A DNA stretch of 64,000 nucleotides from Capitulum mitella. Lineage: Eukaryota > Arthropoda > Thecostraca > Pollicipedomorpha > Pollicipedidae. Below, piece after piece: positions 60,401-63,400 of the stretch. Position numbers and translations under genes: made by a program. How positions within the stretch are numbered: position 1 is the stretch's first letter; each line of letters starts with the position of its first letter. Location: NCBI GenBank assembly GCA_030062745.1, contig CP099851.1, positions 7,318,393 through 7,382,392 on the forward strand. The letters run 5' to 3'. The notes beneath the pieces are model-generated. The model was not told where the DNA came from and searched no databases. It was given only the letters and a program-made list of their open reading frames with translations.

Positions 60401-63400
60401 TCTCGTCAGGAACTGTCAAGTGCGTTCCAGCCAATGGAATGTCCATCCACTTCGGGTGTAAAAGTAAAGTGGTTTAATGGTCATAACTGGCAACAACACA
60501 AAACTCTTCATATCACAAAACCCATATCCTCGTCGGCATTTCCTTCACGAAATACTGCCATGCAGCCGCAGGCTGCGCCGTGCACCCTTGGTCGGTGGCG
60601 GCCGAACGCCGCGTTACCCACCTGTCCAGGCATCCTGCTCCTGCCGTTCTGCACCCGCTCCTTGATGATGTCGGCCAGGTCAGGCAGCTCCTTCATGTAG
60701 CTGCGAAACTCCTGGATGTTGCTGAAACGTAGGCAGGCTGCTCATGGGTGCCATCTAGCGAGCTGTTTCCACACTGTCAGTGCGTGAACCAGCCGCTGTC
60801 ATCGATAGTCGTGAAGTGGCGATAAACAAAGGAACGCTCGGAAAGGACGGCAAACGTCAGAGGCCGCAAAACTGCTACACCCGGACGACGCAAAGGGAAT
60901 GTATCACTGCACGGCTAAAATGTGCTATTGGGTAAGAATGCACGAACATATGCGCCACCACGTACTTATTCGTGCAAAAAGATAGGCGGTTCTATCATTC
61001 CATATTCTAGCATATTTTGCGCAGCAACTCGAAAACGAATGCTGGCAAAGAATAAAGCCAGAGGCGCATCACGAAAAATGACAGTCACATTTCGGACGCC
61101 CGGCTTTTTTGAGGTTCAGTAATAAATAAACAGTCGACCTCCTCTAGCCTTCCGCATATCACGCTTAGCACAGCGTAATGATATTAAGTTCACAATGAAA
61201 CCTGATGAGCCCTTGTCTACCTTCTGACGACTACTTCCTTGCAGCAGCGCGACAACGAATCCAACTATGGTTCACGGGCTTCCAAGAAACACAGAGGAGA
61301 TTCATATACACTAAAACAGTTGCTGTCACAAACATGTGCAAAGAAAAGGTAGCCGGACAAGACAACGCGCACAGAACAGCACAGAGCTAGAATGCCGTCA
61401 CACGGTGTCATCCTTCCTCGATCTGGCGGTGACATCGCCGGGACGTCGCCGGAGCAGAGATCCCACCCCGGCCTCTAGCCACACCTCATACGCCTCCGCC
61501 TAGTTTTAGTCAACCCCCAACTGACCCCGAGTCCAACAAACCCTACTCCAATTCCGTCCCACCCCACCAGAGTACTGCCTCAGACTACCCGAGTCCAAGT
61601 CCCGGTCGCTCGGCTCTCCCCGCGGCCCCAGCCGCCCCCAGTCCCGCCCCAGCTGCGGCGGACGGCGGCCTGGCTCACTTGAGCGACTGGAGGACGGCGT
61701 TCATGAAGCAGGTGTTGCCGAGGTTGCGGAGCCCCGCGGCGCAGCCGGGCCGAGCCGAGCTCTGGCGGTCGGCCGAGCGGCCGCGGCGCCGCGGCGGCCG
61801 CTTCCCGACCCGGTTCTCCGCCTCGCCCTCACTCTCCGACACTGTCAGACTGCAACACAGGGGGAACACTCACTTTCCGACACTGTCAGACTGCAACACA
61901 GGGGGAACACTCACTTTCCGACACTGTCAGATTGCAACACAGGGGGAACACTCACTCTCCGACACCGTCAGACTGCAACATAGGGGGACACTCACTCTCC
62001 GACACTGTCAGACTGCAGCACAGGGGGAACACTCACTCTCCGACACCGTCAGACTGCAACACAGAGAACACACACTCTCCGACACTGTCAGACTGCAATA
62101 CAGAGGGAACAATCCCTCTGATACTGTCAGACTGTAATACACAGGGCACACTCATTCTCCGACACTATCAGCCTTCAATACGAAGGGAATATTCACTCTC
62201 CGACATTGTCAGACTGTACTAACGCGGAAACACTCGCTCTCCGACGCCGCCCACTGTAACGGACAGAATAAACAGTGTAACAGACAAACTGCAACAGACG
62301 GAACATGCACTCTCGGAAACTCGGCATCAGACAATAACCAAAAGAACACTCACTGTAACAAACGGGCTGTAACAGACAGAATACTCACGCTCCACAATTC
62401 AAGACTGTAACGGACAAAATCCATATATTAATAGAGAAATTGCAACAGACTTGCACTCACTGAGAATGCCAGACTGTAACAGACAGAAAACCCACTGTAA
62501 CAGACTCCAATTGGCATTGCACTCATTCCCTGACACGGTCAGACTGCAACGGACAGGTCATGGATTGCTACCGATGGTACACTCACCCTCCGACACTATC
62601 AGACTGCAGCCCACAGAATAATCACTCCAACACTATCAGACTGTAATCCACATGACATTCACTCTCCAGCACCATCAGATTGTAACAGGCAGAATGTTCA
62701 TCTTCTGGTATACACGGACTGTAACAGATCGACAATAGGGCACAATGAAGGAGAAACAACATAACAGAGGAACAGCAGACTGTATGTAACAGATGGACAA
62801 AGGATTCTACAAGAGGGGCTTGACTGTAGCAGAAAGACACAAGGCTGTAATGGAGGTAGGCTGCAACAGACTGCAATATACAGGGATAACTGGTTATCAT
62901 AATTCAATCTCTAAAACTACCAGACTGTGACAACGGAGGTTATCAGTTCCTGTTAACACCAAAAAGTATCAGAAGACTGCAGCAGAGGGAAGTTGTCTGA
63001 GAAGACCAGACTGTACCAGAGGAGCAGTTTCCAGAACGACTTCAGGTAATATCCCCCAATTATGCTGCAGAGTGCTGAATGGCTGTTACAGTCTTGCAGG
63101 GGAGAGGCTAACTGCAAAGCAATCCCCATGCATGCAAATCACATGCCTTCCAGGCAAAGCACCAGTTTGCAGTATTTAACAACTGACAATTTGCAGCAAA
63201 AACCACCCACAACCTTGCCTGGAAAGGGTATGCACAGCGATCAACTCAGCACCATTCTATCGACGACGACTACATAGCAAAATGGCACTGCTTTACACAG
63301 CATGGCTATCCACACAGCATGACTTCTTTCCATTCCCACACAAAGCCAGGCAGCGGTGGCGCCGCCGGCGGCGTGACTCACCGGTTTCGTTTCCTTTTTC

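Follow-up and report, generated by a model that had tools for sequence, protein, structure and literature searches.

Near the 3' end of one intron in a USP3-like deubiquitinase gene of the barnacle Capitulum mitella, the splice acceptor and the first bases of the following exon recur as a long tandem array, and the spliceosome is presented with a series of candidate acceptors of which the last appears to be the real one. This arrangement raises the question of whether the decoys regulate the gene, whether they constrain splicing to the last site, or whether they are tolerated without a function of their own. We addressed this question in a window of 64,000 nucleotides, the whole stretch of DNA analysed, which forms part of contig 13, one of the 16 contigs that make up a 477-Mb assembly, and in samples of exons from UCH-domain and kinase loci elsewhere in the genome.

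The window contains nine exons of the USP3-like gene, all encoded on the minus strand between 63528 and 21378; the 5' part of the gene lies beyond it. These exons pair with those of human USP3 exon by exon, and their joins are in phase (phases being taken from the reading frames). Reading frame and homology together also assign the true acceptor, the last of the series. A search for a close USP3 paralogue without the array, sought for dating, returned none, with matches outside the window at most 46% identical; the window itself gave no Rfam match at gathering scores, no tRNA and no match to the plasmid collection.

The repeated unit is 41 bp long and consists of TCTGACAGTGTCGGAGAGTGAG, the first 22 bases of the exon (61849-61828), joined to TGTTCCCCCTGTGTTGCAG, the 19 bases of the intron end. 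Units are arranged head to tail, and the final copy continues into the real Cys-box exon (Table 1). Such units fill the intron between 61850 and about 62960. A wrap-around alignment against the intron placed 30 units between 63045 and 61850, and when each intron piece was compared with 60 dinucleotide shuffles of itself, scores exceeded the shuffle maximum in the three pieces nearest the exon (625 vs 124 for 62245-61850; 130 vs 87 for 62580-62246; 115 vs 67 for 62960-62581). In the remaining piece, 63381-62961, the score of 28 lay below the shuffle maximum of 58, with no array signal past about 62960, which leaves the outermost aligned units in doubt, the AG decoy at 63011 among them. Counted from the Cys-box exon, the first two intronic copies are identical, and identity drops with distance upstream. 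TRF, unit alignment and shuffles thus agree with the first-pass annotation, which had described the acceptor and first exon bases as amplified in tandem upstream of this exon. A dispersed repeat as the source of the array was considered and rejected: a whole-genome DNA search, which ignores simple repeats and words of very high frequency, matched just the array itself, in two overlapping hits, and within this one assembly the array was found once, only at this locus.

Table 1. Positions of the features discussed, in window coordinates for the USP3-like gene and in the numbering of the sampled stretch for loci with an L prefix.
Feature	Position	Strand	Basis or detail
Exon preceding the array, USP3-like gene	63382..63528	-	Frame; homology to human USP3
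Donor GTGAGT of the exon preceding the array	starts at 63381	-	
Intron, 1,532 bases	61850..63381	-	GT...AG ends; phases of both exons agree
Cys-box exon, USP3-like gene	61679..61849	-	Homology to human USP3
CAG, true acceptor	61850..61852	-	Frame of joined exons
CAG, nearest decoy	61891..61893	-	Its 41 upstream bases identical to those of the true acceptor
CTGAC, branch-like motif in exon-derived part of last intronic unit	61885..61889	-	Sequence; A 36 bases from intron end
GTGAGT, donor-like, within last intronic unit	61868..61873	-	Sequence
Well-kept 41-bp array, 10.3 copies	61828..62245	-	TRF; unit alignment; last 22 bases (61828-61849) exonic
Decayed copies of the 41-bp unit	62246..62960	-	Score above 60 dinucleotide shuffles, both pieces tested
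L025, USP22-like	7118-7453		Acceptor side; 56 bp unit, 4 decoys
L041, GSK3-like	481-639		Acceptor side; 60 bp unit, 2 decoys
L042, MRCK-like	892-1251	-	Acceptor side; about 59 bp unit, 5 decoys
L050, CDKL-like	494-644	-	Donor side; 41 bp copies of exon end and donor, 3 decoys, 1 of 3 keeps GT

Upstream of the true acceptor, AG is kept at 18 of the 29 aligned unit ends (one of these, at 63011, in the doubtful outer stretch) and at eight of the nearest nine, the second-nearest (61932) reading CAA. CAG followed by TCTGAC or TCTGAT occurs in nine of the 18 AG decoys, in accord with the earlier estimate that at least eight copies retain CAG and the exon start. The acceptor matrix, built on 12 sites from this genome whose leave-one-out scores spanned -2.3 to 12.4, is weak; on it, the true site and the nearest decoy each scored 4.3, while AG decoys at 62013 and 62289 outscored them (6.8 and 5.4); eight of the 108 AGs in the intron scored above the true site, whose 4.3 is lower than the 90th percentile (4.6) of all AGs on the strand. 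The matrix supports only a resemblance of the near decoys to the true site. A lack of usable polypyrimidine tracts in the decoys, proposed earlier as a ground for dismissing them, was not seen, in that the nearest decoy scores like the true site on this weak matrix. Because decoys score as high or higher, the choice of the true site would be due to position and exon context rather than to the sequence of the site.

The unit carries two further motifs of possible relevance to splicing, a CTGAC that resembles the branch consensus and a donor-like GTGAGT. After its last exon-derived AG the unit has no further A until that of CAG, which should place the branch site of the true acceptor further upstream; if CTGAC is that branch site, the true acceptor would borrow its branch from the last intronic copy. 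Each well-kept unit also comprises an acceptor, a would-be microexon of 17 bases and the donor-like GTGAGT, and inclusion of one such microexon would create a stop where it joins the following exon copy, as worked out by hand from the unit.

Use of a decoy is predicted to be unproductive throughout. When joined to the preceding exon, all 18 AG decoys run into a stop 6 to 41 codons on, still inside the repeat units, a predicted premature stop in 18 of 18 cases. From the nearest decoy, 15 sense codons precede a TGA that lies in the exon's own unit copy, read out of frame; the first-pass annotation had predicted this TGA after about 14 codons, a count here corrected. It had also argued that most decoy use would destroy the message because 41 is not divisible by three. 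The predicted loss of the message stands, but not its dependence on unit length, as the distance is a multiple of three for seven of the 18 decoys, and these reach a stop all the same.

Purging of harmful decoys should erode their AGs faster than the rest of the unit, whereas a switch should preserve the splice columns. In a purely descriptive comparison, identity to the unit across 29 decoys was 0.78 for CAG, 0.75 for the branch motif, 0.74 for the donor-like motif, 0.65 for the pyrimidine tract and 0.70 for the rest; across the nearest nine decoys the corresponding values were 0.93, 0.91, 0.89, 0.83 and 0.91. We see neither preferential decay nor clear upkeep of the splice-signal columns, and these identities appear to carry no strong signal either way, although CAG is slightly the best-kept decoy feature and a functional reading could claim support from it. 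The proposal that the array selects for strict use of the last acceptor, or provides a switch to non-productive transcripts, is accordingly left unsupported: the signal columns are not set apart, a like architecture recurs in four or more other exons of a genome whose sampled parts are 6-9% tandem array, and arrays of this kind are already described, as the mirages of amphioxus (PMC3087553).

These other cases came from 72 further exon cores, 45 of them in 20 stretches of about 10 kb drawn from 62 UCH-domain matches and 27 in 20 short stretches at kinase loci (20 of 60 chosen loci). Among them we found four more boundary-spanning arrays, three on the acceptor side and one on the donor side (Table 1). 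The gene names given there are suggested by motifs, the searches themselves showing only UCH or kinase domains. All 11 listed acceptor decoys at L025, L041 and L042 keep AG, which is partly ascertainment, as the search for decoys at these loci and at L050 relied on resemblance to the real site; all 11 reach a stop in the frame of the exon. Since the copied exon bases at the three acceptor-side loci encode part of the conserved domain, the intron there received its copies from the exon boundary. Frame and homology identify the copy closest to the exon as the real site in each of the five arrays.

Five boundary-spanning arrays among 81 exon units (9 + 45 + 27), or about 160 boundaries, is a lower bound, because profiles miss some exon ends, some cores take in several exons, and the count covers only part of the nearby arrays. 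Coverage by TRF arrays is 9.3% in the window, 8.4% in 198,115 bases at UCH loci and, at a lower score threshold, 5.9% in 35,657 bases at kinase loci. Given this coverage, boundary-spanning arrays are no more frequent than random placement would produce. Within the window, enrichment of arrays at exon boundaries was rejected: 60 bases or less separate a TRF array from 4 of the 17 boundaries, while 16% of positions are that close (binomial test, background positions 21400-63600, p = 0.29). The simplest reading is of a genome prone to minisatellites, a few of which happen to include a splice boundary.

Three further loci were examined as boundary-spanning and set aside. The 62-bp array of L022 (6947-7403) stops some 24 bases short of the acceptor and includes no more than branch-like TGAC sequence, so that the branch region alone may be amplified there; the array of L017 (5401-5614) lies upstream of the core; and those of L013 could not be tied to a boundary. 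L014 (array 3590-3738, 6 bases after the core) and other near or internal arrays, including those at L011, L023 and L026, stand outside the count. At L018, tandem arrays take up 39% of the 10-kb stretch, a share that none of the other 19 UCH loci approaches. Within the window, arrays at 37776-38230 and 34009-34246 begin 11 and 32 bases past the donors of two USP3-like exons, and no exon bases were seen by eye in their units. An intronic 30-bp array of 29 copies occupies 43750-44618, where long ORFs on both strands follow from a unit length divisible by three and are no evidence of a gene. Genome-wide, (TTAGG)6 occurs at 3,742 places (1,826 + 1,916, overlaps counted apart; reversed control 0), in keeping with an arthropod; the listed matches on contig 1 are internal to the chromosome, and interstitial telomere-type repeats seem common.

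Arrays of this kind have precedents. The "mirages" of amphioxus are minisatellite-like copies of intron-exon boundaries that leave regular splicing undisturbed by RT-PCR (PMC3087553), and PGBD5, Adh and TnC are also named among the genes that bear them (PMC3902484). In Adh3, TnC, the globins BflGb6 and BflGb9, and PGBD5, boundary copies stand in tandem and often keep AG or GT, as here (PMC3087553, PMC3902484). The BflGb6 mirage shares the acceptor-side form of the barnacle array, but has 3-6 units of 150-160 bp, compared with about 27-30 units of 41 bp over 1.1 kb (PMC3087553). As in mirages, the tandem units of the USP3-like gene contain the boundary, their last copy is real and many copies (18 of 29) keep AG. 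The amphioxus examples belong to another lineage and are backed by RT-PCR, whereas the present array was studied in genomic sequence. In potato RdRp, a tandem duplication across an intron-exon boundary, with splice signals inherited from the parent junction as here, founded a new intron (PMC4974935); that case involves one duplication and a new intron in transcripts, whereas the copies here are many and a new intron is not evidenced. Internal tandem repeats of human segmental duplications resemble the barnacle array as minisatellite expansions at boundaries, and can activate cryptic sites, but they lie in recent paralogues and are often exonic, unlike an array in a gene for which no close paralogue was found (PMC2812944). 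The decoy exons in detained introns of OGT are non-productive intronic sites that serve control (PMC12017769), and offer an analogy of function only, the decoys here being a minisatellite without evidence of control. No report of boundary arrays in barnacles or other crustaceans was found in the literature searched, in which subscription papers were thinly covered, the related match being lectin repeats in a prawn. Boundary-copied acceptor arrays are known, if rarely described; their recurrence in a barnacle is new.

We consider it probable that the array is such a mirage, that is, a 3' splice module duplicated in tandem by neutral processes and kept without selected function. A tandem duplication of a segment across the intron's 3' end and the exon start would have founded a minisatellite, which would then have expanded and turned over as other minisatellites do. 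The extra copies would be tolerated because all except the last are intronic and because each well-kept unit would bring a complete 3' splice module (branch-like CTGAC, pyrimidine tract and CAG). The exon-proximal acceptor would prevail by being nearest to the exon's own donor, with which it would pair across the exon; the introns of 1,532 and 957 bases are assumed to be long for this animal, and where flanking introns are large, the sites closest across the exon are preferred (PMC9225289). Products of decoy use would be cleared by nonsense-mediated decay, at a cost of at most some wasted transcript. The anatomy of the array, its gradient from near-identical to decayed copies upstream, the predicted unproductive decoys and the four further arrays all support this reading.

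Events might instead have run in the opposite order, an intronic minisatellite arising first and the exon start being recruited from its last copy as the exon extended into the array. Compatible with this, the copied 22 bases encode LTVSESE, a segment between the zinc finger and the Cys box that has no alignment to human USP3, and because this linker is not conserved, only other loci reveal which way the copying went; there, however, the copied bases of L025, L041 and L042 encode conserved protein, indicating exon-to-intron copying, and a single mechanism for all arrays is simpler, making the opposite order rather unlikely. A functional unproductive-splicing switch, in which decoys, or 17-base microexons from a decoy CAG to the GTGAGT of the same unit, would route transcripts to decay and so adjust the amount of USP3, possibly through copy number, seems to us quite improbable: the AGs kept at 18 of 29 unit ends, the stops reached from 18 of 18 and the equal scores of nearest decoy and true site are what it predicts, but the signal columns lack preferential upkeep beyond the slight lead of CAG, the same architecture is present in unrelated genes, and a chance reading of any intronic sequence is expected to give stops. 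It is extremely improbable that the array or its copy number is an artefact of assembly. The two identical copies nearest the exon on the intron side mean that the count may be off, and the amphioxus draft contained a misassembled globin mirage (PMC3087553); most copies nevertheless differ and decay with distance, and like arrays stand at independent loci.

A bolder extension, which we regard as unlikely, is that boundary copying is frequent and many genes carry working decoy arrays, whose copy number would act as a heritable and fast-changing dial on wasted transcript and whose units, each with an acceptor and GTGAGT, would be a breeding ground for new introns and exons. Where acceptors are nearly identical and only their positions vary, they are natural experiments on splice-site choice, and boundary arrays have been proposed as raw material for new introns and exons. 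Their occurrence in five of the 81 exon units sampled from this barnacle suggests that such arrays are not confined to amphioxus.
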